Source: Chromobacterium haemolyticum DSM 19808 (lineage in GTDB: Bacteria; Pseudomonadota; Gammaproteobacteria; Burkholderiales; Chromobacteriaceae). From it: a stretch of 53,937 nt of DNA. How positions within the stretch are numbered: the stretch's first letter is position 1; each line of letters begins with the position of its first letter. A program made the translations under genes and the position numbers. Below, piece after piece: positions 13,903 to 53,601 of the stretch. Location: contig NZ_JONK01000034.1 in the NCBI RefSeq assembly GCF_000711885.1, positions 1-53,937 of the forward strand. Direction: 5' to 3'. Under the pieces are notes generated by a model. It saw nothing but the letters and a program-made list of their open reading frames with translations, was not told the DNA's origin and did no database searches.

Positions 13903-14658
13903 ATGCAATCATTCGATGCCCTACCCGCTCCGCGCAAAGTCGCTTTCGGGCGCGGCTGGCGCTGGATCGTGGAGGCCTTCTACATTGTCCGCCAGCAGCC
14001 GCTGACCTGGATTTTGCTGGCGCTGGCCTATTTGGTGATCAATTTCATCGTCAGCATGATCCCCTTGCTGGGCGGCCCGCTGTCCTTCTTCCTGGCGCCG
14101 GTGTTCGCCGCCGGCTTCATCCTGGCGGCGAAGAAATGCGAGCAGGGATCGGAGCTGGAGTTGGGTGATTTGTTCGCCGGCTTCAAGACCGCGCTGCGCC
14201 CGCTGATCAATGTGGGCATGCTGTACCTGGCCATCCTGATCGTCATCGGCATCGCGCTGGGCCTGTTGATGGGCGCGATGGGGGTAAGCGTGGCCAAGAG
14301 CGACCCCAACGCGATCCCGGTGATCGCCGGTCCTATCGCGCTGGCCGCCTTCATCGGCGGCGTGGCCGTGTTCCTGGTCAGCCTGGCTTACTGGTTCGCG
14401 CCGGCGCTGGTGACGCTGAACCAGGCCGGCCCGTGGCAGGCGATCCGCGCCAGCCTGCAAGCCGGCCTCGCCAACTGGGGCGCGGTATTAGTGAGCGGCC
14501 TGATGCTGGCGGTACTGGCCTTCATCGCGATGATTCCGCTGGGCCTTGGCCTCTTGCTGTGGTTCCCGGTGCTGTACGTGACCGCATACACCGGCTGGAA
14601 GGATATTTTCGGCCAGTCGGCGGCGCCGGCGCGGCCGGACGAGCCGGTGGTGTTTTAA
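13903..14658 (+). CDS. BPSS1780-family integral membrane protein
   Basis: 251 residues with about five to six hydrophobic segments and conserved N-terminal PAPRKVAFGRGWRWI, matching the BPSS1780 family of beta- and gammaproteobacterial membrane proteins whose function is not known. TTGGAGATTTAG before the ATG supplies a ribosome-binding site. The TAA stop (14656-14658) is also the left target duplication of a family-1 MITE, and the gene's terminator now lies about 170 bases further on. No operon partner is present. Confidence 0.8.
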   Translation: MQSFDALPAPRKVAFGRGWRWIVEAFYIVRQQPLTWILLALAYLVINFIVSMIPLLGGPLSFFLAPVFAAGFILAAKKCEQGSELELGDLFAGFKTALRPLINVGMLYLAILIVIGIALGLLMGAMGVSVAKSDPNAIPVIAGPIALAAFIGGVAVFLVSLAYWFAPALVTLNQAGPWQAIRASLQAGLANWGAVLVSGLMLAVLAFIAMIPLGLGLLLWFPVLYVTAYTGWKDIFGQSAAPARPDEPVVF

Positions 14659-14801
14659 GAACCTGTTCAAAGTCTGCTGCGCGTCGTGAGACGTGGCACG
14701 GTGAGCACAGCTTCGAAATGTTCATGTACCACTTGACCATTCCGCTTCCTCAGCCGTTTTCGCCTTGTCTCGCCCTAGCTCGCGGGACTTTGAGCTGGCT
14801 C
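14659..14801. mobile_element. Family-1 MITE, copy A, inserted in a stop codon
   Basis: 143 bp from GAACCTGTTC to GAGCTGGCTC (inverted ends), flanked by TAA at 14656-14658 and TAA at 14802-14804. The left TAA is the stop codon of the preceding membrane-protein gene. The internal sequence shares the family blocks TTCGAAATG, ATTCCGCTT and CGCCTTGTCTCG with the other copies. It has no coding capacity. Confidence 0.88.
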
Positions 14802-14826
14802 TAAACGCGGCTCGCCTCTTCAATCA

Positions 14827-14850
14827 AGCCCCGCTCAGCGGGGCTTTTTC
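14827..14850 (+). terminator. Rho-independent terminator downstream of copy A
   Basis: AAGCCCCGCT-ca-GCGGGGCTTTTTC on the plus strand. It was probably the terminator of the 13903-14658 gene before the MITE insertion moved it away from the stop codon. Confidence 0.8.
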
Positions 14851-15006
14851 ATGCCCTCACGGCAGTATCGCGGCGATCCAGCCAAAGCCCAGCAAAGGCG
14901 GGTTGAAGTACAGGAAAGTCGGCAGCGCCGGGCTCGCCCCGACACGCATCAGGGTCTGATGGCTCATGATTATCGGCATCGCCGCCGGCTTGCCGGAAGC
15001 AAGCGC

Positions 15007-15039
15007 GCCGGCCCAGGCAAAACCTGGAGCCGGCGTTTT
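15007..15039 (+). terminator. Possible plus-strand terminator
   Basis: GCCGGC-CCAGG-caaaa-CCTGG-a-GCCGGCGTTTTA forms a strong stem with a single bulge and a short T run. No plus-strand gene lies just before it; it may be left from a lost gene or serve as a second stop for the upstream unit. Confidence 0.5.
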
Positions 15040-15074
15040 ACAAGCTCCGCTTTCCGTTTACGCGGTTGGCGGCT

Positions 15075-15184
15075 GAACCTGTTCAAGGTCTACTGCGCAT
15101 CGGCGAGACGGCGTTGAAAACACTTCGCTTTCTCAGCTGTTTCCGCCTTGTCTCGTCCTTGCTCGCGAGACTGTGAACAAGTTA
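15075..15184. mobile_element. Family-1 MITE, copy B, shortened, next to the hutH stop
   Basis: 110 bp from GAACCTGTTC to GAACAAGTTA; shorter than the normal 139-143 bp and with a diverged right end, so it has suffered deletion. The right flanking TTA (15185-15187) is the hutH stop codon read on the minus strand. The left flank (GCT) no longer matches. Confidence 0.75.
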
Positions 15185-16714
15185 TTACAGCGACGGCAGC
15201 AGGCCGGGCTCGACGAAGCGGTTGTAGGAACCGCTGGCCACCAGCGCGGCGGCTTTCTCGATGTCAGGCGCGAAGTAGCGGTCCTTGTCGTAGAAGCTCA
15301 CTTGCTCGCGCAACTCCGCCTTGGCCGCTTCCAGCTTGGCCGAGGTCTTGTGCGGCGCGCGGAAGTCCACGCCCTGGCAAGCGGCCAGCAGTTCCACCGC
15401 CAGGATGCCGGCGGTGTTGCCGGCCATGTCGCGCAGACGGCGGCCGGCGAAAGTGGCCATGGACACGTGGTCCTCCTGGTTGGCCGAGGTAGGCAGGCTG
15501 TCCACCGAGGCAGGATGCGCCAGCGATTTGTTTTCCGAAGCCAAGGCCGCGCCGGTGACCTGGGCGATCATGAAGCCGGAGTTGACCCCGCCGTTGTTAA
15601 CCAGGAAGGGCGGCAGCTTGGACAGATTGCTGTCGATCAGCAGCGCCATCCGGCGTTCGGACAGCGAGCCGATTTCGGCCAGCGCCAAGGCCAGGTTGTC
15701 GGCGGCGAAGGCCACCGGCTCGGCGTGGAAGTTGCCGCCGGACAGGATGTCGTTGTCCGCGGCGAACACCAGCGGGTTATCGGACACCGAGTTGGCTTCC
15801 ACCGTCAGCACCGCGGCGGCTTGGCGAATCTGGGTCAGGCAGGCGCCCATCACTTGCGGCTGGCAGCGCAGTGAATACGGATCCTGCACCTTGCCGCAGT
15901 TCTCATGCGAACGCTCGATCTCGCTATGCTCCAGCAGGCTGCGGTAAATGCGGGCGGCGTCGATCTGGCCGGCGTGGCCGCGCACCGCGTGGATGCGCTC
16001 GTCGAACGGCGTGCGGCTGCCCAGCGCGGCTTCCACTGACAGCGCGCCGGCCACCGAGGCCGAGGCGTACAGGTCTTCCGCGGCGAACAGGCCTTCCAGC
16101 GCGAAGGCGGTGGATGCCTGAGTGCCGTTCAGCAAAGCCAGGCCTTCCTTGGGCGCCAGAGTAATCGGCTCCAGGCCGGCGGAACGCATTGCCACCGCGC
16201 CCGGCACGCGGGTGCCGTTGACGAAGGCTTCACCCTCGCCGATCAGCACCGCGCTCATATGCGACAGCGGCGCCAAATCGCCGGACGCGCCCACTGAACC
16301 CTTCTGCGGAATCACCGGGTAGATGCGTTGGTTAAACAGGGTGATCAGCGCTTCGATCACCAACCGGCGGATGCCGGAAAAGCCGCGCGCCAGCGAGTTG
16401 ATCTTCAAAGCCATCACCAGCCGCACGGTGGATTCGTCCATCGGCGCGCCGATGCCGGCGGCGTGGGAGAGCACGATGGAGCGCTGAAGCAACTCCAGCT
16501 CTTCCGGCGCGATGCGGGTGTTGGCCAGCAAACCGAAACCAGTGTTGATGCCGTAAGCGGTGCGGCCTTCGGACAGCACCCGCGCCACGGTGGCGGCGGA
16601 GGCGTCGATGGCGGCGTGGCTGGACGGATCCAGTTGCAGTTGCAAACCGGTTTCACGTGAAACGCGACGCAGCTCGGCCAGGCTGAGCGTGCCGGGAACA
16701 ATGTTCAATACCAT
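15185..16714 (-). CDS. hutH: Histidine ammonia-lyase
   Basis: 509 residues. First step of histidine breakdown: histidine to urocanate and ammonia. The Ala-Ser-Gly triad that cyclises into the MIO prosthetic group is at residues 143-145 within [23 protein letters not shown] is at 54-61 and the conserved [10 protein letters not shown] lies near 320. It is the last gene of the minus-strand hut cluster, downstream of the permease gene with about 140 bases between. GAAGGAGAATCTCAAG precedes the ATG. Its stop codon abuts a shortened family-1 MITE. Confidence 0.96.
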
Positions 16715-18240: not shown

Positions 18241-18628
18241 CTCTCTCCTCCTGGGCATGGCTGCGCTTGCCGGCCGAACGCGGATGCGCCCGCTACGCCG
18301 CATTCCGCGGCCCGACATGTTTCGTTGCGCAACCCAGCGCCGGCAAACTGTAGAGCCAGCGTGGACGGATCACAAGACCAAGACGCGGAATCAGCGCCAG
18401 GGCATGACGAAACCATGTGGACTGCGGACGCGAGCGCGCCGGCGCGTCTCTAACGAACGCGCAAGAACAACATGACCGTTTTTTTCCTTTGCAAGACGAT
18501 TGCCTGCCCCGCCGCTTATTTGTACAAGCTTGTCGTGCGGAGCCACGGCTGCCGGGCCTTCCCGGCTGCCGTCAGCCGCCGCCTGCGTGAGCGCGGCGGC
18601 GGCATCCCTACCTTCAGAACATAAGTTC
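18241..18628. other. Intergenic region between hutU and the permease gene
   Basis: About 390 bases without a gene. Contains GC-rich inverted repeats after the hutU stop (GCCGCCGCC...GGCGGCGGC near 18571-18607) and a small palindrome TTGTACAA at 18520-18527 that resembles, but is shorter than, the HutC sites upstream of hutI. It may hold a second hut promoter for the permease and hutH; I see no convincing -35/-10 pair. Confidence 0.5.
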
Positions 18629-20302
18629 TCAGCGCTTCAGCATCGGCAGGTCCAATCCCTGCTCTCTCGCGCAGTTCTCGGCGATCTCATAGCCGGCGTC
18701 AGCGTGACGCATCACGCCGGTGCCCGGGTCGTTGCGCAGCACGCGGCCCACCCGCTTGGCGGCGGCGTCGCTGCCGTCGCAAACAATGACCACGCCGGAG
18801 TGCTGGGAGAAGCCCATGCCCACGCCGCCGCCGTGATGCAGCGACACCCAGGTGGCGCCGCCGGCGGTGTTGAGCAAGGCGTTCAGCAAAGGCCAATCCG
18901 ACACGGCGTCGGAACCGTCCTTCATGCTTTCGGTCTCGCGGTTGGGCGAGGCCACCGAACCGGAGTCAAGGTGGTCGCGGCCAATCACGATGGGCGCTTT
19001 GAGCTCGCCGTTCTTGACCATCTCGTTGAAGGCCAGGCCCAGGCGGGCGCGGTCCTTCAGGCCCACCCAGCAAATGCGCGCCGGCAAGCCCTGGAAGCTG
19101 ATGCGCTCCTTGGCCATATCCAGCCAGTTATGCAGGTGCGGATCGTCCGGAATCAATTCCTTGACCTTCTGGTCGGTCTTGTAGATGTCTTCCGGATCGC
19201 CGGACAGCGCCACCCAGCGGAAGGGGCCGATGCCTTCGCAGAACAGCGGGCGCACATAGGCCGGCACGAAGCCGGGGAAGTCGAACGCATTGGCCACGCC
19301 TTCTTCCAGCGCCATCTGGCGGATGTTGTTGCCGTAGTCCAGCGTGGCGGCGCCGCGTTGCTGCAGAGTCAGCATCGCGCGCACTTGCACCGCCATCGAC
19401 TGCTTGGCGGCGGCGGTGATTTCGGCGGCGGACGTTTTCTGCTTGGCGCGCCATTGCTCCACCGTCCAACCCTGCGGCAGATAGCCGTGCACCGGGTCGT
19501 GGGCCGAGGTCTGGTCGGTGACCACGTCCGGAGTGATGCCGCGTTCAACCAGCTCCGTGAACACGTCGGCGGCGTTGCCCAACAGGCCCACAGACACCGC
19601 CTTGCCGCTGTGCTTGGCCTCGTCAAGGATGGCCAGCGCCTCGTCCAGGGTCTTGGCCTTGCGGTCCACATAACGGGTTTTCAGACGGAAATCGATGCGG
19701 GTCTCGTCGCATTCGACGGCGATTATGCTGAAGCCGGCCATGGTGGCGGCCAGCGGCTGGGCGCCGCCCATGCCACCCAGGCCGCCGGTCAGGATCCAGC
19801 GGCCTTGCGGCTTGCCGTCGAAGTGCTGGTTAGCCACGGAGAAGAAGGTTTCGTAGGTCCCCTGCACAATGCCTTGCGAACCGATGTAGATCCACGAGCC
19901 GGCAGTCATCTGGCCGTACATCATCAGGCCCTTCTTATCCAGCTCGTTGAAGTGCTCCCAATTGGCCCAGTGCGGCACCAGATTGGAGTTGGCGATCAAA
20001 ACGCGCGGCGCGTCGGCGTGAGTCTTGAACACGCCCACCGGCTTGCCGGATTGCACCAGCAGGGTTTCGTCGTCCTCCAGACGCTTGAGCACGTCCAGGA
20101 TGGTGTCGTAGCACTTCCAGTCGCGGGCGGCGCGGCCAATGCCGCCGTACACCACCAGGCTTTGCGGGTGCTCGGCCACTTCCGCGTCCAGATTGTTCTG
20201 GATCATGCGGTAGGCGGCTTCGGTCAGCCAGCTCTTGCAAGTCAATTCGGCTCCGCGCGGCGCGCGGATGTGGCGGGTCGGATCAAAACGCGGGTCGGAC
20301 AT
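18629..20302 (-). CDS. hutU: Urocanate hydratase
   Basis: 557 residues, full length. Converts urocanate to imidazolone propionate using tightly bound NAD+. Conserved segments include [15 protein letters not shown] near residue 48, [17 protein letters not shown], the Gly-rich [15 protein letters not shown] near 172, LLGNAADVF and [14 protein letters not shown], and the C-terminal [20 protein letters not shown] eight bases before ATG fixes the start. It follows hutG with a 75-base gap in the same transcription direction. Confidence 0.97.
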
Positions 20303-25670: not shown

Positions 25671-25681
25671 GCGTTCTTATA

Positions 25682-25820
25682 GAGCCTGTTTACGATCTCG
25701 CCAGCTAAGGCGAGACAAGGCGAAAACTAGTGAAAAGCGGAATGCACATACAGTACATGAGCATTTCGAAGCGGGTTTCAACGCCGTACCGCCGCAGCGC
25801 AGCAGATTATGAACAGGCTC
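25682..25820. mobile_element. Family-1 MITE, copy C, at the stop codon of the M3 peptidase gene
   Basis: 139 bp, from GAGCCTGTTTACGATCTCG to GATTATGAACAGGCTC. The right flanking TTA (25821-25823) is the TAA stop of the minus-strand peptidase gene. The left flank is ATA, one base off a TTA duplication. Internal blocks GCGAGACAAGGCGAAAAC, AAGCGGAATG and TACATGAGCATTTCGAA are typical of the family. Confidence 0.88.
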
Positions 25821-27695
25821 TTAGTGCGCCGCGGCTGGGTAACGCTCCCCCACCCACGCCTCGAAACGACGGCACATTTCAGCCTCCCCCGCGGTGTTGT
25901 CGGCGATCAGCTCGGCGCCATGCACCAGCCGTATCGTCGCGTCCAGCCGCTCCGGGTAATCCCGCGCGTAGTTCCGTTCCGCGGCGGCGGCGATCAGCCG
26001 CTCCGCTTCGCGCCAGGCCTCGTCCACGCTGAGGTCGCAGGCCTCCGCCAGGTATCGAGCGTTGAAATGCTCGCCGGTCAGGCTCAGCAAAGTGGCGTCG
26101 TGATCCAGGCTGTTGCCCGGGGCCCAGTAATGTTCGGCCAGCAGCGGGCCGATCGCCGGGTTGTCGGTCAGGTAGCCGTATTCGCGCAGGAAGTAGGCTC
26201 GGGTCTGATACACCGCCATATGCGCCAGCAAATAGCCGTGATAAGACGCCGCCGACTCCTGGTTCAACAAATGCGGAATCGCCAACAGTGGCCGCGGGCC
26301 GCATTCGACGCCCAGGATCTCGCGCTCGCAGCGGCGCGCCAGCGCCAACACCGTCTCCGGCGTCAGTTCCGCTTCCGGCAGCCGGTACAGCTCGCGCTCG
26401 AAGTAAGCGACCACGGCGATGGACCGCTCGGAGAAGGCGAAGAAAGGCTGGGTCGCCTCGATGCGCGCGCGGATCAGCGCGTCCGGCATCGCCTCGCCCG
26501 CGGCGTTGCGGGCGTAGCGCTTCAGCCAATCGGCGTCGTTCAGCAGGCTGTCGCAGAACATGCTCTGAGTTTCGGCGTAAGCCATCGAGGTGGGCGCGAA
26601 CTCCTGTGAGAAGCACGGCGCGTTCTGGATCACATTGGCGAAGTGAGCGGCATGGCCGCCTTCGTGGAACAAGGTATTGATCGCCCGCGCGCCGCTGCCC
26701 ACCTGATCCGGCGTGGCGTCGGCGGTGAAATTGATCCGGCCCGGCACCCAGCGGCCGTCGTCGTAGTAGCTGGGCACCGGCCCGTGGCAGAAGCCGTTCT
26801 GATACTTGCCTTTGCGCTCCACCAGGTCCAGCTGCATGGTGGCCTGCCGATACTGCACGCCCAGCCGGCGAAAACTCAGCACCCAGCGTTCCACCGCCTT
26901 GGAGAACGGCAGATAGGGATCCATCTGCCGGGTCACGTCGCCGCTCATGTGAAAGCGCAGATTGTACGGCAGCAGCGCGTCCGCGCCTTTGTCGTCGGCC
27001 AAGCGCCGCAGCGCCCGCTGATTGGCATCGCGGGTGCGCGCTTCGAAATCGTCGAGCACGGCGAACAGCTCATCCGACGTCATCTGCTCGTTCTTGCGCA
27101 CCTTGTGCTCAAAATAATCGGCGCTGCCCAGGCTGCGCGCCAGCGCATTGCGCTGTTTGACGATGTCGAGAAAGCCGTTGTCCAGCACCCAGCGCTCCAG
27201 GTCGAGCAAGGCGTCGTGCGAGCTTTTACGTGCGGCGAGATCCGGGTTGGTGGCCATATTGATGGCCAGCATGGTGAGCGTCGCCTCTTCGCGCTCGCCA
27301 CGCTCGTTGATGTGGCTGAGCGCAAGGTCGCGGCGCTTGGCGAACAACCCGGCCTCCATCTCGATCAGCCGGCGCATCTGTTCCTGCGCCGCCGCGCTGT
27401 CGATGATGTTGCTTTCAAACAGCGCCAGCCAGCCCTGATAGCCGTGCAGCAAGGCGTCGCGCTCCGCGCCGGCCGGCTGCGCCTGCAAACGATCCAAGGC
27501 CGCGCGCACCGCCGCCAGCCGCTCCGGGCTGGAGATAAAGGCCTTGTAGTCGGCTTCGGCGCGGGCGAAACCGTCGTGGTCGTCGGACACCGCCATATAG
27601 GTGTCCCAGAACAGGTCTTCCTTGGTTTTGTGCACCGCCAGGTAATCGCGGTTGAGCTGGTCGAACTCCGCGCGCAGTTCGGCAATCGCTGTCAT
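25821..27695 (-). CDS. M3-family oligopeptidase (oligoendopeptidase-like)
   Basis: 624 residues, cytoplasmic, no signal peptide. The zinc motif HEGGH is at about residue 343 in NTLFHEGGHAAHF, matching HExxH of thimet-type peptidases, with PTSMAYAETQSMF downstream supplying the third ligand Glu region. It cleaves short peptides. AAGGAGAG before ATG 27695 fixes the start (the open frame extends nine codons further). Stop codon is coincident with the duplication of a family-1 MITE. No operon partner. Confidence 0.87.
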   Translation of the reverse strand: MTAIAELRAEFDQLNRDYLAVHKTKEDLFWDTYMAVSDDHDGFARAEADYKAFISSPERLAAVRAALDRLQAQPAGAERDALLHGYQGWLALFESNIIDSAAAQEQMRRLIEMEAGLFAKRRDLALSHINERGEREEATLTMLAINMATNPDLAARKSSHDALLDLERWVLDNGFLDIVKQRNALARSLGSADYFEHKVRKNEQMTSDELFAVLDDFEARTRDANQRALRRLADDKGADALLPYNLRFHMSGDVTRQMDPYLPFSKAVERWVLSFRRLGVQYRQATMQLDLVERKGKYQNGFCHGPVPSYYDDGRWVPGRINFTADATPDQVGSGARAINTLFHEGGHAAHFANVIQNAPCFSQEFAPTSMAYAETQSMFCDSLLNDADWLKRYARNAAGEAMPDALIRARIEATQPFFAFSERSIAVVAYFERELYRLPEAELTPETVLALARRCEREILGVECGPRPLLAIPHLLNQESAASYHGYLLAHMAVYQTRAYFLREYGYLTDNPAIGPLLAEHYWAPGNSLDHDATLLSLTGEHFNARYLAEACDLSVDEAWREAERLIAAAAERNYARDYPERLDATIRLVHGAELIADNTAGEAEMCRRFEAWVGERYPAAAH

Positions 27696-27965: not shown

Positions 27966-27968
27966 TAA

Positions 27969-40368: not shown

Positions 40369-41879
40369 CAGCGCAGCACCTGCGACCAGTCCTGCTCGAA
40401 GTAGTGCACCAATTGCTGATTGTTCAGTTCATTGGGCAAGACTTTCCAGCGCGGCATGTCGGGCGGGAAGAAGAACATCTGGCGCGTGGCCTCCTTGTCC
40501 AGAAAGCGCAGCGGCACCGAGTAGCGCTCCGGCGGGGTATAGCCCGGCTTCTTGGCGGCGATAATGAAGCCCCATTCGCCGAAGGAAGGCACGTAGGCGT
40601 GGTAAGGCGTGGTATGCAGGCCGGCGGCGCGCAAGGTGGCGTCCACGCTCCAGAACGAACGCGGGGCGTGCATCGGGGAGGTGGACTGCACCACCGCCAG
40701 GCCGTTTTCCGCCAGGTGGCGCGCCAGCAGCCGGTACAGCGGCACCGAATACAGTTTGCCCAGCGCGAAATTGGACGGATCGGGGAAATCGACGATGACG
40801 GCGTCGAAGCTGCCGTGGTCCTGCTCCAGCCAGCGCGCGGCGTCGTCGTTGACCACGGTGACGCGTGGATCGGTCAAGGACCCCTGGTTCAGCGCGCGCA
40901 GCGGTTCGGAACGGCTGAACAGCCGGGTCATCGCCGGGTCCAGGTCCACCAGAGTGATGCGCTGGATATTGCGGTATTTCAGCATCTCGCGCACCGCCAG
41001 GCCATCGCCGCCGCCCAGCACCAGCACATTACGCGCCCATGGCAGCTTGGCCAGCACCGGATGCACCAGCGCCTCGTGGTAGCGGTGTTCGTCGCGGCTG
41101 GAGAATTGCAGATTGCCGTTGATGTAAAGCCGCAAATCGCTCTTCCACTTGGTGATCACTAAACGCTGGTAGGGCGTGGTCTCGGCGTGGATGATCTCGT
41201 CTCCGTACACGGCTTTCTCGCTCCAGCGCGTCAGGTGATCGGAGGCCAGGAAGCCGCCGGCCAGCAGCAGCAAAACCACGCCGCTGCGCGCCAGCTGCAG
41301 GCCGGGCTGACGCAACTCATGGCGGAAAGCGCGACAGGCCCACAGCGCCACGCCTGCGTTGAGCAAGCCAAACAACAGTGCGCTGCGCGACAGGCCCAGC
41401 TTGGGCGCCAGCACCAGCGGAAACAGCAGCGATACCGCCAGCGCGCCCAGGTAGTCGAAGGTCAAGACCTGGCTGACCAGTTCGGAAAAGCTCGCCTGGC
41501 GCTGGTTCATCGCCCGCATCACCAGCGGGATCTCCATGCCCACCAGCACCCCGATCACGAAGACCAGGCCGTAAAGCACCAGCCGGAACGGTTCGCCGGC
41601 CCAGGCGAACACCAAGAACAACACGGCGGCGGACATGCCGCCGATCAGGCCGACCAACAGCTCGATTTCAATGAAGGCATCCAGCACCCGCTCGTCCTTC
41701 ACATACTTGGACAAGTGGGAGCCCACGCCCATGGCGAACAGGTAACAACCTATGATGGAAGAGAACTGCAACACCGAGTCGCCCAGCAAGTAACTGGCCA
41801 GCGCGCCGGTGATCAGCTCGTAGGCCAAGCCGCAGGAGGCCACGATAAACACTGATACTATCAGCAAGCGATTTCGCAT
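40368..41879 (-). CDS. Membrane-bound spermidine synthase-like aminopropyltransferase
   Basis: 503 residues. The first ~215 residues hold about seven hydrophobic segments (FIVASCGLAYELITGALASY begins the first); the rest is a spermidine-synthase domain: VLVLGGGDGLAVREML near residue 308 for decarboxylated AdoMet, VDLDPAM, and FDAVIVDFPDPSN near 380, the motif with the catalytic Asp. Soluble SpeE lacks the membrane half, so this belongs to the membrane-fused class. It probably transfers aminopropyl groups at the membrane; with the AdoMet decarboxylase at 45109 the donor would be made in the same cluster. ATG 41879 is chosen; ribosome-binding signals are weak. First gene of the minus-strand operon. 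Confidence 0.88.
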   Translation of the reverse strand: MRNRLLIVSVFIVASCGLAYELITGALASYLLGDSVLQFSSIIGCYLFAMGVGSHLSKYVKDERVLDAFIEIELLVGLIGGMSAAVLFLVFAWAGEPFRLVLYGLVFVIGVLVGMEIPLVMRAMNQRQASFSELVSQVLTFDYLGALAVSLLFPLVLAPKLGLSRSALLFGLLNAGVALWACRAFRHELRQPGLQLARSGVVLLLLAGGFLASDHLTRWSEKAVYGDEIIHAETTPYQRLVITKWKSDLRLYINGNLQFSSRDEHRYHEALVHPVLAKLPWARNVLVLGGGDGLAVREMLKYRNIQRITLVDLDPAMTRLFSRSEPLRALNQGSLTDPRVTVVNDDAARWLEQDHGSFDAVIVDFPDPSNFALGKLYSVPLYRLLARHLAENGLAVVQSTSPMHAPRSFWSVDATLRAAGLHTTPYHAYVPSFGEWGFIIAAKKPGYTPPERYSVPLRFLDKEATRQMFFFPPDMPRWKVLPNELNNQQLVHYFEQDWSQVLR

Positions 41880-41971
41880 TGGATTGTCATTGTGGGTAAA
41901 ATAGCCGCCATTATGCCCCAGCCCGCGGCCAACCGCCGCCCGCACACCGCATCGACAAAGGACGCCTGACC

Positions 41972-42373
41972 ATGATTGCCGCCTTCCTGCCCGCCCTGCT
42001 CGCCTACCTGACCTATATGGGCAGCGGCCTCGCGCTGCTGGCGCTATTCGCGGTGCTCTATTGCTGGATCACGCCGATAGACGAATTGAAGCTGATCCGC
42101 GACAACGGCCACGCCGCCGCCGTCTCCTTCGCCGGCGCGCTGCTGGGTTTCTCGCTGACGCTGGCCTCCAGCGCCTGGCACCTGAACAACTGGAACAGCT
42201 TCATGCTGTGGGCGCTGCTGGCCATGCTGGTGCAGATCGTCGTCCACATGGTGGTGGCGCGCTGCCTGAAAGATCTGAGCCGCGCGCTGATAGACAACAA
42301 TCTGGCGATGGGCATCCTGGCCGGTTCCATCCACCTCGCCGTGGGCCTGATCAACGCCGGCAGCCTGTCCTGA
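41972..42373 (+). CDS. DUF350 integral membrane protein
   Basis: 133 residues with four hydrophobic segments in two internal repeats, each of the DUF350 kind (first repeat around TPIDELKLIRDNGHAAAVSF, second around KDLSRALIDNNLAMGILAGS). DUF350 proteins are found beside PspA-like, DUF4178 and polyamine-enzyme genes in many bacteria and have no assigned function. First gene of the plus-strand operon, divergent from the aminopropyltransferase with about 90 bases between; the next gene starts 35 bases downstream. Confidence 0.85.
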   Translation: MIAAFLPALLAYLTYMGSGLALLALFAVLYCWITPIDELKLIRDNGHAAAVSFAGALLGFSLTLASSAWHLNNWNSFMLWALLAMLVQIVVHMVVARCLKDLSRALIDNNLAMGILAGSIHLAVGLINAGSLS

Positions 42374-42407
42374 ACCCGGCCGCGCCTCTTCAACTGGAGC
42401 AAACACT

Positions 42408-43457
42408 ATGAGCCTGATGTCTTTCATCAAGAAGCAGTTCATCGACATTCTGGAATGGCAGGAGCAGGAAGACGGCGTGCTGGCCTGGCGTTATCCGATG
42501 CAGGACAACGAGATTCAGTACGGCGGCAGCCTGACGGTGCGCGAGTCGCAGGCGGCGGTGTTCATCAACGAAGGCAAGATCGCCGACGTGTTCGAACCCG
42601 GCATGTACAAGCTGACCACCCAGACCCTGCCGGTGCTGACGTATCTGAAGAACTGGGACAAGCTGTTCGAATCCCCCTTCAAATCCGACGTGCACTTCTT
42701 CAGCACCCGGCTGCAACTGGGCCGCAAATGGGGCACCGCCCAGCCGGTGACCATACGCGATCAGGACTTCGGCATGGTTCGGCTGCGCGCCTTCGGCGTT
42801 TATTCCTACCGCGTCGCGGATCCGCGCCTGTTCTTCACCGAGGTCAGCGGCACCCGCGACAGCTACACCCGCGATGATCTGGAGCTGCAGCTGCGCAATC
42901 AGGTGGTGGCCACCATGAGCAGCGTGCTGGGCGGCAGCGGCGTGCCCTTCCTCGACATGGCCGGCAATCAGGGCCTGATGGCGGACAAGATCCGCGAGGC
43001 GCTGGTCCCGGCCTTCCAGCGCCTGGGCCTGGCGCTGGACAGCTTCGCGGTGGAAAACATCTCCTTGCCGGAAGAGCTGCAAAAAGCCATAGACAAGCGC
43101 ATTGCCATGGGCATGGCCGGCGACCTCAATCAGTACACCCGCTACCAGGCGGCGGAAAGCATTCCGCTGGCGGCGCAGAACGAGGGCGGCATCGCCGGCC
43201 TTGGCGCCGGGCTGGCGGCCGGCGTAGGCGTCGGCCAGTTAATGGGTCAGGCCATGCAACAAGTTGTGCAGCCGGAGGCCACGCCCGCCGCGCAGACAGC
43301 CCAGGCCGCCGCGCCGCAGACTCCGGCCGCCGCCCCGGCGGCGGACAATCCGCAAGCCAAGCTGGCTCAGCTCAAGGGCCTGCTGGACCAGGGGCTGATT
43401 ACACAGGCGGATTACGACGCGGCCAAGGCCGACGTGCTGAAAAAACTGGTGGGTTAA
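42408..43457 (+). CDS. SPFH-domain protein with C-terminal SHOCT (YdjI-like)
   Basis: 349 residues. No signal peptide. Residues ~20-235 fit the SPFH/band-7 fold of the YdjI group (COG4260-like): QEDGVLAWRYPMQDNEIQYG, ESQAAVFINEGKIADVFEPG, and the conserved VRLRAFGVYSYRVADP. A Gly/Ala-rich segment with weak hydrophobic character follows (residues 250-280), then an Ala/Pro linker and a SHOCT motif, LAQLKGLLDQGLITQADYDA, near residue 320. In Bacillus, YdjI works with PspA at the membrane; no PspA gene is present here. It is probably a membrane scaffold of the polyamine cluster. Confidence 0.85.
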   Translation: MSLMSFIKKQFIDILEWQEQEDGVLAWRYPMQDNEIQYGGSLTVRESQAAVFINEGKIADVFEPGMYKLTTQTLPVLTYLKNWDKLFESPFKSDVHFFSTRLQLGRKWGTAQPVTIRDQDFGMVRLRAFGVYSYRVADPRLFFTEVSGTRDSYTRDDLELQLRNQVVATMSSVLGGSGVPFLDMAGNQGLMADKIREALVPAFQRLGLALDSFAVENISLPEELQKAIDKRIAMGMAGDLNQYTRYQAAESIPLAAQNEGGIAGLGAGLAAGVGVGQLMGQAMQQVVQPEATPAAQTAQAAAPQTPAAAPAADNPQAKLAQLKGLLDQGLITQADYDAAKADVLKKLVG

Positions 43458-43465
43458 GCTAGCGC

Positions 43466-44932
43466 ATGTACCGTATTGCCTGCCCCTCCTGCGGCGCCGA
43501 TGTCGAGTTCAAGTCCGAAGCCTCCGCCATGGCGGTGTGCGCTTACTGCCAAAGCACGCTGCTCCGCGACGCGGACAGCGTGCGCGACATCGGCAAGATG
43601 GCGGCGCTGCTCAATGATTATTCGCCGCTGCAAATCACCAGCTGCGGCCAGTACTTGGGCCGCGGCTTCAACGTCGTCGGCCGCATCCAGCTGCGCTACG
43701 ACGCCGGCCTGTGGAACGAATGGTATTTGCTGTTCGACGACGGCGGCGACGGCTGGCTGTCGGAAAGCGTCGGCCAATACACGCTGACGCTGGCCGGCGG
43801 CGCGACACAGGAAGCCGGCGGCTTCGATAGCCAGCGTCCCGGCGCCGTCTTCCGCCACGGCGACGCCGACTTCGTGATTTCCGATGTGCGCACCGCCGAA
43901 TGCACCGCCGGCGAAGGCGAACTGCCGTTCCAGGTGGGCGCCGGCTGGCAAGCCAAGGTGGTGGACGCGCGCCGCCAGGCGCAATTCCTGACGCTGGACT
44001 ACTCCGACGACCCGCAAAAGCCTCAGCTTTTCCTTGGCAACGCCGTTACGCTGCCGCAGCTGCACATGGAGCGGCTGCGCGACACGCGGATGATAGAAGA
44101 AGCCACCGGCAAGCTGAAAGGCAGCGTCGCCTCGCTGGAATGCCCCTCCTGCGCCGCGCCGCTGAGCTACCGCGCCGGCACCGCCACCCAACTGGTGTGC
44201 GGCCACTGCCACACCCAGGTGGACGCCAGCGGCGACCGCGCATTGGCGCTGGGCGCCGCACAACAGCAGTTGGACACGCCGCTGACGCTGGAACTGGGCA
44301 AAACCGCCACCATAGACAAGCTGCCATGGACGCTGACCGGCGCGCTGGTGTGGGCGGAGGAGGAAGACCCGGACAGCCGCTGGTGCGAATACCTGCTCTA
44401 CAACGTGGACAAGGGCTTCCGCTGGCTGGTGGAGAGCGGCGACGGCTGGTTTATCGGCGAGTTGATGGATGTGTGGGTGGACAGCCTGCGCGCCGATTAC
44501 GCGATGCTGGGCAACAAAGCCTATCAGCGCGCTTATCCCGACTACGCGGCCCGCATCGTCTACGCCGCCGGCGCCTTTCCCTGGCGCGCCAAGCTGGGCG
44601 ACAAGGTTGAGCTCAGCGAATACCAGATCTCCGGCGGCCAAAAGCGCTTGTCGCGCGAGCTGTCGGCGCACGAGCTGACCTGGAGCTGCAGCAGCCTGGC
44701 CACCTCGGTCGAGGTGGGCCGCTGGTTTGGCAGCGCGACGCCGATAGAATCGGGATTCTCCGCCACGGAGGGCGAGGGCGAAGACTTGAAGGCCATCGCC
44801 GTCAAGTTCGGCCTGGTGCTGTTATTGATCAACCTGCCGCTGGCCTTGCTGAGCCAGGATATCGGCGATGGACTGCTGATCTGCTTCTTCGCCTGCTGCG
44901 TGCTGGCGATCCCGCTCAAGCAGAAGGAATGA
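43466..44932 (+). CDS. DUF4178 protein with two zinc ribbons and C-terminal membrane segments
   Basis: 488 residues. Two similar halves, each starting with a zinc ribbon (C6/C9...C25/C28 and C226/C229...C245/C248) followed by a DUF4178 beta domain (GQYLGRGFNVVGRIQLRYD... with NEWYLLFDDGGDGWL in the first, and LTGALVWAEEEDPDSRWCEY with FRWLVESGDGWFIGEL in the second). Two hydrophobic segments end the protein at about 453-483. The family accompanies DUF350 and SpeD genes; function unknown. It starts eight bases after the SPFH gene, so it is in the same operon. Confidence 0.85.
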   Translation: MYRIACPSCGADVEFKSEASAMAVCAYCQSTLLRDADSVRDIGKMAALLNDYSPLQITSCGQYLGRGFNVVGRIQLRYDAGLWNEWYLLFDDGGDGWLSESVGQYTLTLAGGATQEAGGFDSQRPGAVFRHGDADFVISDVRTAECTAGEGELPFQVGAGWQAKVVDARRQAQFLTLDYSDDPQKPQLFLGNAVTLPQLHMERLRDTRMIEEATGKLKGSVASLECPSCAAPLSYRAGTATQLVCGHCHTQVDASGDRALALGAAQQQLDTPLTLELGKTATIDKLPWTLTGALVWAEEEDPDSRWCEYLLYNVDKGFRWLVESGDGWFIGELMDVWVDSLRADYAMLGNKAYQRAYPDYAARIVYAAGAFPWRAKLGDKVELSEYQISGGQKRLSRELSAHELTWSCSSLATSVEVGRWFGSATPIESGFSATEGEGEDLKAIAVKFGLVLLLINLPLALLSQDIGDGLLICFFACCVLAIPLKQKE

Positions 44933-44938
44933 AAGCCG

Positions 44939-45112
44939 ATGTCGCCAGGACTCTATAAAGCCTTTTGCCTGCTGGTGATCGCAATCACCACCATGATCAA
45001 TTTCTCCAATATGGACAACACTAACCGCGGCACCGGCTCGCGCAGCTGGAGCAGCGGTAGCGGCGGCGGCGGCTCCTCCGGCTGGGGCAGCGGCGGCGGC
45101 GGCCATAAATGA
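44939..45112 (+). CDS. 57-residue Gly/Ser-rich membrane peptide between DUF4178 and speD genes
   Basis: Begins MSPGLYKAFCLLVIAITTMI (one membrane segment, residues 6-20), then NFSNMDNTNRGTGS and a tail of Ser/Gly/Trp repeats (SWSSGSGGGGSSGWGSGGGG) ending HK. Starts six bases after the DUF4178 stop and overlaps speD by four bases (ATGA), a clear sign that it is translated. Similar short Gly-rich peptides occur at this position in related clusters, as far as I recall. It could be a membrane-anchored display or assembly factor; unknown. Confidence 0.75.
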   Translation: MSPGLYKAFCLLVIAITTMINFSNMDNTNRGTGSRSWSSGSGGGGSSGWGSGGGGHK

Positions 45113-45510
45113 AAGCGGCGATTGGCCGGCACCTGCTGGCGGATTTTCACGGCTGTCCGCCGCAGCGCCTCAGCGACCCGGCCCAGGTGGAGCACGCGCT
45201 GCGCCAGGCGGCGCAGGCCGCCGGCGCCACCGTGCTGGCCGGCCACGTCCACCACTTCGGCGAGGCTCAGGGCGTCACCGGCATCCTGTTGCTGATGGAG
45301 TCCCACCTCAGCATCCACACCTGGCCGGAACACGGCTACGCCGCGCTGGACCTGTTCATGTGCGGTCAAGCCCGCATCGACGCCGCGCTGGCGCGGCTGC
45401 GGGAGGCGCTGCAGCCGGCCGAGGTCCGCAGCCAGCTGCATCGACGCGGGGAACTGACGGTATCGCCCATTCCCGATATTGCCAACGGCACGACTCGGGA
45501 ACAGGCTTAG
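45109..45510 (+). CDS. speD: S-adenosylmethionine decarboxylase proenzyme
   Basis: 133 residues, prokaryotic class 1B size. Decarboxylates AdoMet to the aminopropyl donor for polyamine synthesis; the active pyruvoyl group comes from self-cleavage at Glu64-Ser65 in LLMESHLSIHTWPE, with His70 and Cys85 (DLFMCG) as the processing/proton residues. The cluster makes it partner of the membrane aminopropyltransferase at 40368-41879. Four-base overlap with the small peptide gene. Its TAG stop ends with the first base of a family-1 MITE; before insertion the codon was probably TAA. Confidence 0.94.
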   Translation: MKAAIGRHLLADFHGCPPQRLSDPAQVEHALRQAAQAAGATVLAGHVHHFGEAQGVTGILLLMESHLSIHTWPEHGYAALDLFMCGQARIDAALARLREALQPAEVRSQLHRRGELTVSPIPDIANGTTREQA

Positions 45511-45649
45511 AGCCTGTTCAAAGTCTCGCGATCCAAGGCGAGACCGGGCGAAAACGGCTGAGACAGCAGAGTGCGCATACGGTTGAGCATTTCGAAACCG
45601 CACTCGCCGTGTCGCGGCTCACGAAGCGCAGCAGACTAAGAACAGGTTC
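45510..45649. mobile_element. Family-1 MITE, copy H, supplying the last base of the speD stop
   Basis: 140 bp from GAGCCTGTTCAAAGTCTCGC to ACTAAGAACAGGTTC. The left flank TTA (45507-45509) and right flank TTG (45650-45652) are a one-mismatch duplication. The TA of TTA plus the element's first G forms the speD stop TAG. Confidence 0.88.
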
Positions 45650-45662
45650 TTGACCCTTTCTC

Positions 45663-49955: not shown

Positions 49956-50013
49956 ATTCCCGCTCCACAGTGAGAACATCATCGCCGCCGGCCCGGCGGA
50001 CGGGCAGGTTTTA

Positions 50014-50152
50014 AGGCCTGTTCAAAACCTAGCGAGCAGGAGCGAGACAAATCGAAAACCGCTGAGAAAGCGGAATGTACGAGCGGTACATGAGCATTTC
50101 GCAGGAATTTTCAACGCTGTATGCCGACGCGCAGCGGATCGTAAACAGGTGC
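50014..50152. mobile_element. Family-1 MITE, copy I, intergenic
   Basis: 139 bp from AGGCCTGTTCAAAACC to GATCGTAAACAGGTGC, with exact TTA duplications at 50011-50013 and 50153-50155. It is one of the few copies that is not at a stop codon: it lies between the starts/ends of the DUF4337 and VF530 genes. Confidence 0.88.
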
Positions 50153-50202
50153 TTAAGCCTTAACGCAAGGCTGCCTGCTTCCGTGGCCAATGGCAATGGC
50201 CA

Positions 50203-50551: not shown

Positions 50552-52822
50552 TCACGCGGCCGGCTTGGGCTTGCGTTGCCGCGGCGCGCGTTTGGGCGCG
50601 GGCTTGACCGGCGCCGGAGCCTCCGGAGGCGAGCTGTTCCGCTGGGCCAAGCCCATCGCCAGCGCCAGCCGGCCCAGGCGCTGCTGCTTCTCGCCGCTGA
50701 TGGGCCCCGCCGCTTGCAGCAGCAGAATCGCCAGCTCCAGCGCGAACTGGCGCTGTTGCTCGGTGGGCAACAAATGTTCCAGCGTCGCCAGCGCGCGCTT
50801 CTCGTCGTTGCGCACCAGCCAAGTCTGGCGCCGCACCGCCTGCTTGAACTGCTCCAGCGTCAAATCCTCGCCCAAGGCGGTTTCCTGCATCACCCGGCGA
50901 ATAGCGTTGAACGGCCTCACGTCCACCACGCCGTTGCCGATGGCGACATAGATCAACAACCGCAAAAAGCCGTCCACCGGCCCGCCTTCGGCGTAATGGG
51001 CCTCCAGCTCCTGGCGCTTGAGCCGCAGCATCTCACTGCGCTCCCAACTGCCGTCCGCCTTGCGCACTCCGTATTCGCGCTGCGGTTTCAAACCAGTCAG
51101 CGCCGCGCTCCACGGCGATTCGAACAAAGTTCGGAAGCTCAGCTCCTGCCAGGCGTCGCGACCGTCGCGCCAACCGTTCAGCGCCGTCTCCATCCACTGC
51201 GCGTAGCTTTGCTGCCATTGCCAGAACGGATTGTCCTCCGCCGCCGGCCGCCGTTCGTCGCGTACCTTCTCCGCCCATTGCCGCAGCCCGGCCAGCCAGG
51301 GGTTGCGGCTGGAAAACCAGCGTCGCTCCAATCGCGACGGATGCATTTCGCGCCACCAGCGCGCGGTATGCTCGTTGCCGTATAAGCGCAGCCAGGGAGA
51401 GACGAAGGTATCGTACAGCTGCTGGTTGACCTCTCCCACCCGGCGCACCACTTCGAAGGCGGCCTCGCCCTGGCGGCCGTCGCCCAAAGCCAGAATATCG
51501 TCGATGTCGCGCGGCTCGAAGCGGATCACGTAGCGGCCTTGCAAGTATTCCAGCCCGGCCATTTCCGGGTGGGTATCGGTGATGATGGCTTCGTACAAGC
51601 CGGGCGGCAGCACATCGATCAAGTCCAGCGCGCTGGCCAGCTCGCTGTGTTCCTTGTTGGCCACGCCGGCGGACACGAAAATGCCCAGGTGGCCCACCTG
51701 CTCGTGCAGGCAATAGACGATGGTCTGCTCATTGACGCGGATGTCCTCCACGCTGTGGTACAGGTCCGCGATCCAGAACAGCGCCTGCTGTGGCGGGGTG
51801 ATGTTGTCGCCCCAGGAGGCGAACACCACGATGGGCGAGCGGATGTTGCGCAAGTCCACCGCCTGCCGTCCCTGCTCCAGCGTCACTTCGCCATGGCTCA
51901 GCCGGTTGCCGACGAACAGGTTTTGGGTAATCCATTCCATCTCGGCCTTGTTGAGCAGATAGTGGCCGCCCCACCAGCGCTCGAACTCCAGGAAGCGCTC
52001 ACGCTCGGTGTCCACCTTGGCGTACAAAGAGTAAGGCTTTTTCCAGTAGGTGTTGGCTGGGTCCAGCTGTTCGAAATTGCTGACCAGATGAGCCCCGTCG
52101 AACTGGCCGTGGCCCAGGTCGCCCACCAGCGAGGCCATCCAGGTGCCGCCGTACAAACCGCCGGAATAACGCATCGGATTCTTGCCGGCCACGCCGGCCC
52201 AGTAAGACAACGGCGAGCCGGCCAGCAGGATGGGGCCCACCAGCTCCGGCGCGGTGGCCGCCAGCATCGCCAGCGCCCAGCCGCCCTGGCAATTGCCGAT
52301 GACGAAGGGTTTGCCGGCGCTGTGCGGATGCAGCTGGTTCACCTTTTGCAGGAAGATCTTCTCGGCGCGCCACACGCATTCAATCGTCTGCTTGGGCTCC
52401 GGCACCGGGAAAAACATCACGAAATAACAAGGATGGCCTTGGCGCAGCGCGATGCCGATCTCGCTATCCATCTTGAAGCCGCCGATGCCGGGGCCGTGGC
52501 CGGCGCGCGGGTCTATCACCACGAAGGGCCGTTTGGCCGGGTCAGGTTTCGGACAACCGTCCGGCGGGCGGATCGCCGACAGCGCGTAATTGACCGGCTG
52601 CTCCAGTTCACGGCCATCCACGATGATGTCGTAGTCGAAAACCAACACCGGCGGATGGCCGGAGGCGGCGTGCTCCAGATAGGTGTCCCCGCGCTGGCGC
52701 AGAATGTCGCAATACAGCACCGAACGCTGCCAGGCGTCGATCCAATACTCCACCAAGGCGCCGTTCAAACCCCCGGCGCCCAGCGCGGAGAACCAAGGAA
52801 ATGAAGAATCAGGCAGGCTCAT
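50552..52822 (-). CDS. DUF3141 protein with alpha/beta-hydrolase (PhaC-like) core
   Basis: 756 residues, no signal peptide. The N-terminal half is an alpha/beta hydrolase: [17 protein letters not shown] near residue 100, and the nucleophile elbow [16 protein letters not shown] near 185 with Cys in place of Ser, as in polyhydroxyalkanoate synthases; [16 protein letters not shown] near 335 supplies the Asp and [12 protein letters not shown] near 375 the His. The second half is helical and ends in a basic Pro/Ala/Lys-rich tail ([14 protein letters not shown]). DUF3141 proteins are often called PHA-related but their reaction is not established. GGAG eight bases before ATG 52822 fixes the start. 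Confidence 0.85.
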
Positions 52823-53050
52823 GCGAAACGCTCCGGCGACGATAAGGGAATGCCGCAATTCACTCTAGTCCAAATCCCCGCCCCGGTCGGGAAAAAGCCC
52901 ATCGGCAAAACGCTTGCCGGCGGGCTTTACATTTGGTAACAATTGACCCCGGCCAACTCACACTTAATTGACAGTCGCCATCCAGAATAATGGAGTGATC
53001 CTGCCGATGTCGTCCGCCCGCATCACAGCCATCAATGGAATGGCCCGCCT

Positions 53051-53530
53051 ATGAAACCGCAGATACCCTTTATATTCGCCAGCCTCGCCGCCGGCGCCGC
53101 TCTGGCCGCGCCGCCGGAACCCGCATGCCCCCCGATGGGCAATTTCGCCGGCCGCCCGTGGAAGATAGACCCGGCCAAGCGCGACGCTTTCATCGCCCAA
53201 CATCAGAAAGCGCTGCACGACAAGCTCAAGATCCAGCCAGCCCAGGAAGCCGCGTGGCTCGCCTTTGCCAGCGCCACCCGCCCCGGTCCGATGCCGCCCT
53301 GCGAAAACGCGTCCACCGCGCCGGAACGCATGGAACAGCGCGTGCTGATGGCGCAGCGCCACCTGCTGAATCTGCAAAAGCGTTTGGAAGCGCTCAAATC
53401 CTTCTACGGCCAGCTCACGCCAGAGCAGCAAAAAATCATGGACCAGGACAGCCCGCCGCTGATGGGCGGCCGGGGCCAGGGGCCAATGCGCAAACTGCAG
53501 GCAGGCCAAGGCAACGAGCCTCACAACTAA
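53051..53530 (+). CDS. Periplasmic LTXXQ-motif protein, Spy/CpxP-like
   Basis: 159 residues. Signal peptide MKPQIPFIFASLAAGAALAAP, then a helical body with KLKIQPAQEAAWLAFASA near residue 59 and the LTPEQQKIMD motif near 123, the LTXXQ signature of Spy/CpxP chaperone-like proteins that bind unfolded envelope proteins. The Cys residues near 26 and 83 may form a disulfide. The TAA stop (53528-53530) is followed immediately by a decayed family-1 MITE. Confidence 0.82.
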   Translation: MKPQIPFIFASLAAGAALAAPPEPACPPMGNFAGRPWKIDPAKRDAFIAQHQKALHDKLKIQPAQEAAWLAFASATRPGPMPPCENASTAPERMEQRVLMAQRHLLNLQKRLEALKSFYGQLTPEQQKIMDQDSPPLMGGRGQGPMRKLQAGQGNEPHN

Positions 53531-53598
53531 AACCCGTTACGATCTGCGACGATTCGTGAGCCGTGGCGCGGCGAGCCCCGCGCATTGTTGCAAACTGC
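53531..53598. mobile_element. Family-1 MITE, copy J, decayed, at a stop codon
   Basis: 68 bp, from AACCCGTTACGATCTGC to GTTGCAAACTGC, flanked by TAA at 53528-53530 (stop of the Spy-like gene) and TAA at 53599-53601. Internal GTGAGCCGTGGCGCGGCGAG resembles the same region of copy A; about half the element is missing. Confidence 0.65.
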
Positions 53599-53601
53599 TA
53601 A

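Follow-up and report, generated by a model that had tools for sequence, protein, structure and literature searches.

A short MITE-like repeat of Chromobacterium haemolyticum often sits precisely at the stop codon of a gene

Results

Copies of family 1 in stop codons

Family 1 is a short mobile repeat, present in hundreds of copies in Chromobacterium haemolyticum, and its copies coincide exactly with gene stop codons far more often than the available target sites would give. It was examined in a stretch of 53,937 nucleotides of C. haemolyticum DSM 19808 (the window), in 1.63 Mb of the 5.03-Mb genome (G000) and in parts of two sister species (G001 and G004). A copy was called strict when identical TNA duplications stood on both sides, and a stop was counted as hit when the duplication fell exactly on the stop of a called gene. 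The results showed that 65 of 101 strict copies were in stops (40/62 in G000, 10/10 in G004 and 15/29 in G001), with 8-10% expected, as were 109 of all 211 detected copies (67/141, 17/24 and 25/46, respectively). The original statement that insertions are found "almost only" in stops was therefore too strong. Among the non-coding, element-free TNA sites of the 1.63-Mb sample, 972 of 11,068 (about 9%) are stops, against which the 40/62 of G000 gave p = 1e-26; weighting the sites by target motif raised the expectation to 16-20% (p < 1e-13), and excluding the window left 36 of 56 strict G000 copies in stops. The predicted density of hits, far above that of available non-coding TNA sites, was thus upheld by a count over 1.63 Mb and two sister species. 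Of the 72 strict copies of G000 and G004, 3 were in divergent spacers; in G000 these spacers account for 2908 of the 10,735 spacer TNA sites. A called gene extended into 8 of the 211 copies.

It is very improbable that this excess is a product of counting, arising from nested arrays, from the gene caller or from the restriction to strict copies. The strict filter is itself biased toward stops because both duplications must be intact and the proximal copy of a stop is under selection, and within 80 nt it gave a crude odds ratio of 6.8, compared with 3.6 when it was not applied; 6 of 50 stop hits were flagged as nested beside another copy. However, about half of the unfiltered copies were still at stops, as were 23 of the 44 best-scoring copies (score of at least 120), the three species agreed, orthologous gene ends confirmed the stops, and removal of the nested hits left a stratified odds ratio of 3.9 in the comparison with nearby TNA sites given below.

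Nature of the elements

Family 1 is about 149 bp long with both duplications and about 143 bp between them, has the ends GAACCTGTTC...GAACAGGCTC, which form terminal inverted repeats, and carries no transposase gene; 141 copies were found in the sampled 1.63 Mb of G000. Its ends and its TNA duplication are common to an autonomous IS that this genome also carries (window positions 259-277; L080). Mobility was seen in the 101 strict copies of the three species and in the 17 of 181 orthologous G000-G004 gene ends where just one of the two species has a full copy; at 2 of these the other species has a remnant or a truncated element. Family 1 thus looks like the MITE of a TNA-duplicating, IS5-type element, and its presence across the genus is patchy.

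The right end of the partner IS lies at the contig edge in the window (1-277, plus strand), with a PF13586 match at C31:9-254 and the outer sequence TCGTAAACAGGTTC followed by TAA at 275-277. This IS was found at nine G000 contig edges, the window's included, with 99-100% identity, and encodes a DDE transposase with a DUF4096 part. The transposase matched NF033580 at 150.9 bits (cut-off 110), which places it in the IS5 family, and PF01609, PF13586 and PF13340 each above its own cut-off. The IS5-type element that had been proposed from the window was in this way supported. The IS5 family includes a TNA-duplicating subgroup, which we take to be the IS1031 group. Since its ends are shared with this IS, family 1 is probably moved in trans by an IS5-family transposase.

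Copies in the window

Eight stop coincidences had been listed in the window, and all were found in the sequence, each at the stop of a called ORF. Copy A (14656-14804, plus strand) has TAA on both sides, the left TAA being the stop of 13903-14658; G001 and G004 have the same gene end without the element, an empty site that was read by eye, the automatic gap values (1202 and -318) being unusable owing to neighbouring differences. The shortened copy B (15072-15187, plus) ends in TTA 15185-15187, which on the minus strand is the TAA stop of the hutH gene (15185-16714), and has lost its other duplication (GCT versus TTA). Copy C (25679-25823, minus) has TTA 25821-25823, the TAA stop of 25821-27722, and an imperfect distal duplication (TAT). 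Copy E (35484-35632, minus), with TGA on both sides on the plus strand, has its left TGA in the stop of 34881-35486 and is antisense to that gene. Copies F (37264-37412, minus) and G (38619-38766, minus) have TCA 37410-37412 and TCA 38764-38766, the TGA stops of 37410-38138 and 38764-40368, respectively. Copy J (53528-53600, plus) is a truncated left half whose TAA 53528-53530 forms the stop of the gene at 53051-53530. The eighth case is a family-2 copy (34603-34721, plus), with TAA on both sides and the left TAA in the stop of 31063-34605. Four of the eight genes scored above a curated cut-off: a BPSS1780-family protein (A), hutH (B), a member of the indolepyruvate ferredoxin oxidoreductase family (34603) and an NAD-dependent deacylase (F); the genes at C and G had weak matches only, and those at E and J none.

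The original list stood for these exact cases, but it took no account of the imperfect duplications of B and C or the truncation of J, and it omitted a lost copy in the stop of the minus-strand gene 18629-20302. There, a remnant (18614-18631, minus) consists of TGA, 12 bp of element tips and TGA; GAACTTATGTTC TGA follows the stop, the 12 bp being two 6-bp tips, and G004 has a full copy at the orthologous stop. Copy D (27820-27968, plus) and a copy at 50011-50155 (minus), both with TAA on either side (on its own strand in the latter), are not at a stop; a second family-2 copy (27966-28082, plus) adjoins D and at its far end reaches the TAG stop of the minus-strand gene 28079-28639. Copy I (45507-45652, minus), described as not at a stop, indeed has no exact match, but it touches the TAG stop 45508-45510 of gene 45109-45510, formed by TA from the duplication and the first G of the element. 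A plasmid search gave matches that cover part of the query only.

Target preference and neighbouring sites

The preferred target, read from occupied sites, is the palindrome C-TNA-G: in the strict G000 copies the base before TNA was C in 39 of 62 and the base after it was G in 40 of 62. Because of this preference, C-TAA-G stops were hit most often, 17 of 79 having a strict copy. Per CTAAG/CTTAG site, strict copies decreased from 17/79 in exact stops to 5/83 within 80 nt downstream and 6/224 farther away (100 of the 101 copies used). The ratio of TAA to TGA was 32:18 in stops with a copy and 412:759 in those without one. T-TAG stops had strict copies in 0 of 34 cases (2.5 expected), though the first G of the element would re-make TAG; a re-made TAG is thus not a favoured site of strict copies, and five non-strict family-1 copies were read as sitting at one.

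Comparison of stops with other TNA sites within 80 nt downstream, stratified by pentamer, showed that the pentamer accounts for the stop excess only in part (50/1266 versus 16/2677; odds ratio 4.3, measured among surviving copies only). The excess was particularly marked in convergent spacers (14/334 versus 4/1638; stratified odds ratio 8.4), and odds ratios of 3.1 to 5.4 were left after control for pentamer, stop distance, next gene start and flank G+C. Neither flank G+C nor an extended motif abolished the effect; hit stops showed little motif beyond C-TAR-G except in the downstream bases, which we ascribe to neighbouring copies. Avoidance of terminators was rejected as too rare a cause of the empty neighbouring sites, 131 of 2212 of which lie in a predicted terminator. 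Avoidance of promoters was rejected as the whole cause because a similar excess was found in convergent spacers and where the next start is at least 300 nt away.

Comparison with sister species

For the 17 gene ends with a full copy in just one species, the alignment crosses both stops in 10; in 5 it breaks off 1-5 nt before them with the same offset, and 2 have offset differences of 3 and 9 nt. These gene ends show that the stop predates the insertion, and for them it held, as had been claimed, that an insertion copies the stop without changing the protein.

Occupied stops coincided between species. For G000 and G004, both were occupied at 4 gene ends, one only at 10 and 7, and neither at 160 (odds ratio 9.1, p = 0.0055); the corresponding counts were 4, 6, 4 and 77 for G000 and G001 (p = 0.004) and 4, 1, 3 and 39 for G004 and G001 (p = 0.0009). 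Shared insertion is an unlikely cause for all four G000-G004 and all four G000-G001 pairs, two stops being common to both sets; of the G004-G001 pairs, two look shared (86% and 93% identity) and two do not. Several stops have apparently been hit independently in two species by different elements, as judged from a different family, opposite orientation, a different duplication or only 68-71% identity, and from identity alone at C5:175829 and L036:8889. The stop of copy C has a different element in G004 and G001, the stop at 34603, with family 2 in the window, has family 1 in both, and the stop of copy J has a full copy in opposite orientation in G004. As for the synteny anchors, C1 matched G006 over its length only, C6 only part of G008, and C5 one G004 region besides many matches from a repeated domain.

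Orientation and divergence of the copies

Elements at stops were mostly in sense orientation, 45:20 for strict copies (p = 0.003) and 78 of 109 for all copies (p = 8e-6); in tandem spacers (G000 and G004) the sense:antisense ratio was 38:16 at stops versus 19:27 elsewhere. Divergence from the consensus was lower at stops (0.18 versus 0.225, p = 1e-4), partly from missed ends of decayed copies; longer persistence of copies locked in stops by selection has no support, the stop copies being the less diverged. Of three copies folded against shuffles, A (z -4.3) and C (z -4.6) were more stable, while F was not (z -0.3). The sense bias, the lower divergence and the two stable folds would agree with a sense RNA acting in the 3' untranslated region, by stability, processing or termination, copies in stops then being favoured after insertion. 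We find this doubtful: a 3' function would not require the exact stop, the difference in divergence is partly one of detection, and patchy presence in the genus argues against an essential role. Moreover, the consensus, which ends ...CTCGCGAGACTTTGAACAGGCTC, has no U-tract behind a hairpin, whereas a mobile intrinsic terminator would have a G+C-rich hairpin with a U-tract after it, no terminator-like site was found inside copies E, F and G, and an Rfam search of the window gave no match; one weak terminator-like site was seen inside the family-2 copy.

Insertion sites of the partner IS

Six copies of the partner IS were read as not nested beside a MITE; being near-identical, they are probably young. 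L166 and L102 lie exactly at stops and L105 and L172 at 15 and 46 nt from one, while the window's own copy and L096 are away from stops. Relatives of the IS in other taxa were at a called stop in 4 of 42 distinct sites and in or at coding sequence in 13, which gives no support to a stop bias as a general property of the IS family; the gene model used had been trained on the window's genome and is weaker there. Matching ends with identical TNA could be assigned in 45 of 80 relatives, in a search that itself demanded TNA; when the criterion was a raw open frame with a minimum of 100 codons, 9 of the 45 were at stops, four of these Pfam-recognised, on a background of 463 of 6864 flank TNA sites (7%).

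These sites bear on active aiming, in which the complex would be steered to stops or gene ends, for example through a link with translation or with the termination of transcription, or through some extended feature of the sequence. The four IS copies at or near stops, the different elements in the same stops of sister species and the excess that survived all controls and held in convergent spacers argue for it. However, most sites in other taxa are not at stops, hit stops show little extended motif, and to our knowledge no DNA transposase reads a stop codon. We consider aiming unlikely, and it is likewise with low confidence that we would propose that an IS5-type complex uses C-TNA-G much better when it is the stop of a translated gene.

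Discussion

The most likely explanation, and one we think probable, is that a preference for C-TNA-G is filtered by survival, since the duplication re-makes the stop. An IS5-family transposase would duplicate TNA at this palindrome and move family 1, and C-TAA-G and C-TGA-G stops would be among its targets. An insertion in such a stop would leave the protein unchanged, as seen at orthologous gene ends; coding insertions, of which few are seen, would be lost, and insertions between divergent genes are rare. Survivors would accumulate at gene 3' ends, above all in the stop itself, because coding sequence and 3' flank would both be unbroken there. The junction of a copy is again a C-TNA-G-like target, so that elements lie side by side and the same stop is open to insertion in another lineage, as the different elements in the same stops show. 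Several observations stand against this explanation: the excess at stops that is left after stratification by pentamer, also in convergent spacers, in which an insertion should endanger no promoter; the rarity of predicted terminators at the neighbouring sites; the lack of strict copies in T-TAG stops; the sense bias, which is not predicted by a palindromic target; the bias of the strict filter itself toward stops; and the few stop sites among IS relatives in other taxa. Among the causes first proposed, selection, in the form of survival at gene 3' ends, is supported and a canonical intrinsic terminator is not, with active aiming and another transcript role as less likely alternatives.

The usual view is that mobile elements spare their host by inserting in intergenic DNA. 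In the genomes studied here, about half of the copies examined occupy the three bases at which an insertion has no cost for the protein. This location and the different elements in the same stops of sister species make aiming versus survival directly testable. For annotation it matters that in these genomes a transposon stands at the start of many 3' untranslated regions. If steering to stops were true, the genus would host elements that couple their integration to gene ends, with built-in sparing of the host.

Family 1 resembles IS5-family ISs and their MITEs in its terminal repeats, its 3-bp TNA duplication and the DDE transposase with a DUF4096 part of its partner, but unlike the IS5 relatives elsewhere (4/42 at stops) it piles up in stops in three species of one genus. 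The BOX, RUP and SPRITE repeats of Streptococcus pneumoniae are described as small non-autonomous repeats that insert into one another and are over-represented between convergent genes, which was attributed to tolerance downstream of genes, and 36 BOX copies are reported to encode the stop at the very 3' terminus of a gene, with strong evidence of truncation absent (PMC3049150). Family 1 shares with them small size, lack of autonomy, 3'-end location and mutual insertion; the identity of duplication and stop, the test against available targets and the different elements in orthologous stops set it apart from those repeats as described there (PMC3049150). QMITE2 of Coxiella burnetii is a MITE of similar kind, 150-190 bp long, located for the most part in intergenic DNA and 3' untranslated regions, with one copy at the 3' end of enhC and direct repeats of 7-11 nt and variable sequence; as described, it gives a C-terminal extension or a stop made by an indel, whereas family 1 gives a duplicated stop codon (PMC5896051).

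Location of the MITE copies relative to stop codons

Family 1 was represented in the window by ten copies (A, B, C, D, E, F, G, I, one at 50011 and the truncated J) and family 2 by two. The original prediction that a trinucleotide flanking seven copies of family 1 and one of family 2 is exactly the stop codon of the neighbouring gene was confirmed with the called genes. Copy B retained a single duplication, the outer duplication of copy C was imperfect and only the left half of copy J was present. One case had escaped the prediction, a remnant at 18614-18631 made of 12 bp between two TGA and located in the stop of the gene at 18629-20302.

A search profile derived from eight of the window's copies was used for counting in stretches of the DSM 19808 genome (G000) totalling 1,625,476 bases, window included, in which a purpose-written hexamer-based caller trained on this genome gave 1436 genes. 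Some of these stretches were chosen for known matches, which biases the sample towards elements, apparently not towards stops. A first look at the 5.03-Mb genome, of which the window forms contig 31, gave 445 family-1 candidates (40 scored), and such candidates numbered 319-445 in three of 13 congeneric genomes (G000 and the sister species G001 and G004) and 6-33 in the other ten.

The counts showed that 67 of the 141 copies of the G000 sample were exactly at a called stop. This was the case for 40 of 62 strict copies, those with an identical TNA duplication on both sides (36 of 56 when the window is excluded), when 9% was expected from the stops among the non-coding, element-free TNA sites (972 of 11,068; p = 1e-26) and 16-20% when this expectation was weighted by target motif. 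Stops were occupied by 10 of 10 strict copies and 17 of 24 copies overall in G004 (440 kb, 10% expected), and by 15 of 29 and 25 of 46, respectively, in G001 (367 kb, 8% expected). An excess over the available non-coding TNA sites, whose absence would have refuted the original prediction, was found in G000 and repeated in both sister species. Because the proximal duplication is maintained by selection, the strict filter favours stops; the filter-free figure of 109 of 211 copies in the three species is safer than the strict counts.

Target sequence, partner IS and nesting

The base preceding TNA was a cytosine in 39 and the base following it a guanine in 40 of the 62 strict G000 copies; the target is C-TNA-G. 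The TAA:TGA ratio was 32:18 among hit stops versus 412:759 among unhit stops, and a strict copy was present at 17 of the 79 C-TAA-G stops of the three species (this count and the orientation analysis used 100 of 101 strict copies, one flank being too short). An element end and its duplication form a new C-TNA-G site, and therefore copies adjoin one another. In family 2, for which the count rests on 25 copies only, 6 of 16 strict copies were at stops and 9 of 16 adjoined a family-1 end when the flanks were read by eye. More than half of the inspected IS ends likewise adjoined a family-1 end.

At T-TAG stops, insertion into TTA re-makes TAG from the TA of the duplication and the first G of the element. 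Insertions of this type were located at 45507-45510 and 28079-28082 of the window, in L026 and C7 of the sampled sequences and in two G004 copies; re-made stops of this type were not enriched among the strict copies of the three species.

The window begins with the right end (277 bases) of an IS that shares its terminal sequence with family 1, and this end was found at nine G000 contig edges, the window's included, with 99-100% identity. A relative (locus L080), read as complete at ~850 bp, follows the stop of a gene that is probably xseA, from which a 10-bp end fragment separates it. Two overlapping frames encode its DUF4096 part and its DDE domain, and it is a member of the IS5 family. Six young IS copies were read as non-nested: two were exactly at stops, two were 15 and 46 nt off and two were not close to a stop. 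In G004, probing with the IS right end yielded only short end matches among the 40 candidates scored of 174. Near the edges of G000 contigs C12, C24, C33, C39, C45 and C51, a further group of transposases with PF13586, all scoring 32.9 bits, may be the partner of family 2.

Among the best 80 of 542 confirmed loci of transposase relatives in other bacteria, 45 had assignable matching ends and an identical TNA, giving 42 distinct sites, of which 4 were at a called stop, 13 in or at coding sequence and 25 intergenic. The four stops belong to genes for a GntP-type permease, metK, uvrC and a PD-(D/E)XK protein; the insertions in the metK stop (L188, Xenophilus) and the uvrC stop (L204, a Burkholderiaceae MAG) were both exact. 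No clear stop excess was found at these 42 sites, which lie in other genomes where the gene model is weaker. The 4 of 42 argues against a strong built-in stop preference across the IS family, and hence for survival.

Excess at the stop itself and orientation

Sites were stratified by pentamer for the 72 strict copies of G000 and G004. The odds ratio of stops was 13.7 against all other non-coding TNA, 4.3 against TNA up to 80 nt downstream (3.9 when nested matches were removed) and 3.8 against TNA within 30 nt downstream. It was 5.4, 4.8, 4.0 and 4.9 when the next gene start was at least 100, 150, 200 and 300 nt away, respectively, 8.4 in convergent spacers and 3.5 (2.0-6.4) in a logistic model with flank composition. 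The crude, unstratified odds ratio within 80 nt was 3.6 when the duplication filter was dropped versus 6.8 with it. A residual excess of perhaps two- to fourfold was thus left once motif and location had been accounted for. Predicted terminators covered too few sites to matter as its cause. Survival via intact 3' flanks and active aiming at stops are both possible causes.

Of the copies at stops, 45 of 65 strict ones (p = 0.003) and 78 of 109 overall (p = 8e-6) had their left end towards the gene; in tandem spacers this bias was present at stops (38:16) and absent elsewhere (19:27). A palindromic target does not predict it, and an effect on the transcript might explain it; a transcript role is likewise possible for the residual excess. 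When 24 strict copies were folded as a consensus, the terminal repeats dominated the structure, the consensus sequence had no U-tract and an Rfam search of the window gave no match.

Orthologous gene ends

Gene order was conserved in congeners for the probed parts of the window. The gene end at copy A is the same in G001 and G004. In G001, it carries a single TAA and no element, and the sequence directly behind this TAA resembles, by eye, that behind the element in G000; in G004, the downstream sequence is different.

Comparison of 181 orthologous gene ends of G000 and G004 (mean identity 92%) showed that 4 were occupied in both, 10 in G000 only, 7 in G004 only and 160 in neither (odds ratio 9.1, p = 0.0055). 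Among the 17 gene ends with an element in one species only, 10 had an alignment that passed both stops, 5 had one that ended 1-5 nt short with equal offset and the remaining 2 had offsets of 3 and 9 nt; at 2 of the 17, G000 has a remnant or the truncated J. The elements differed at all four doubly occupied stops: the first pair was 71% identical with duplications TAA/TAT versus TGA/TGA, the second was family 2 versus family 1, the third was in opposite orientation and the fourth was 68% identical. Inclusion of the stop at 53528, also doubly occupied in opposite orientation, gave p = 0.0007. Between G000 and G001, 4 ends were occupied in both, 6 and 4 in one only and 77 in neither (p = 0.004), with different elements at all four doubly occupied stops, two of which also belong to the G000-G004 set. 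Between G004 and G001 these numbers were 4, 1 and 3, and 39; two double stops look shared (elements 86% and 93% identical) and two differ. Some stops have thus been struck repeatedly, or the element there exchanged, independent insertions being the simpler reading where duplications, families or orientations differ.

One G004 element (C1, ~5217100-5217240) combines the left flank of copy I with the right flank of copy G (window 38619-45652). This is what would be seen if the intervening 6.7 kb had been lost via MITE-MITE recombination, or gained in G000.

Discussion

A C-TNA-G-preferring IS5 transposase combined with survival would account for most of the pattern, stops in the right context being harmless targets that would be open to repeated insertion. 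In line with this, coding insertions are scarce (a called gene extends into 8 of 211 copies) and divergent spacers nearly empty (3 of 72 strict copies in G000 and G004). These measurements explain neither the residual excess nor the orientation bias.

Searches of mostly open-access literature revealed no description of a bacterial MITE or IS with its target duplication on stop codons. The nearest precedent found is the pneumococcal BOX repeat, which provides the stop codon of 36 genes, with no strong evidence that these were truncated (PMC3049150).
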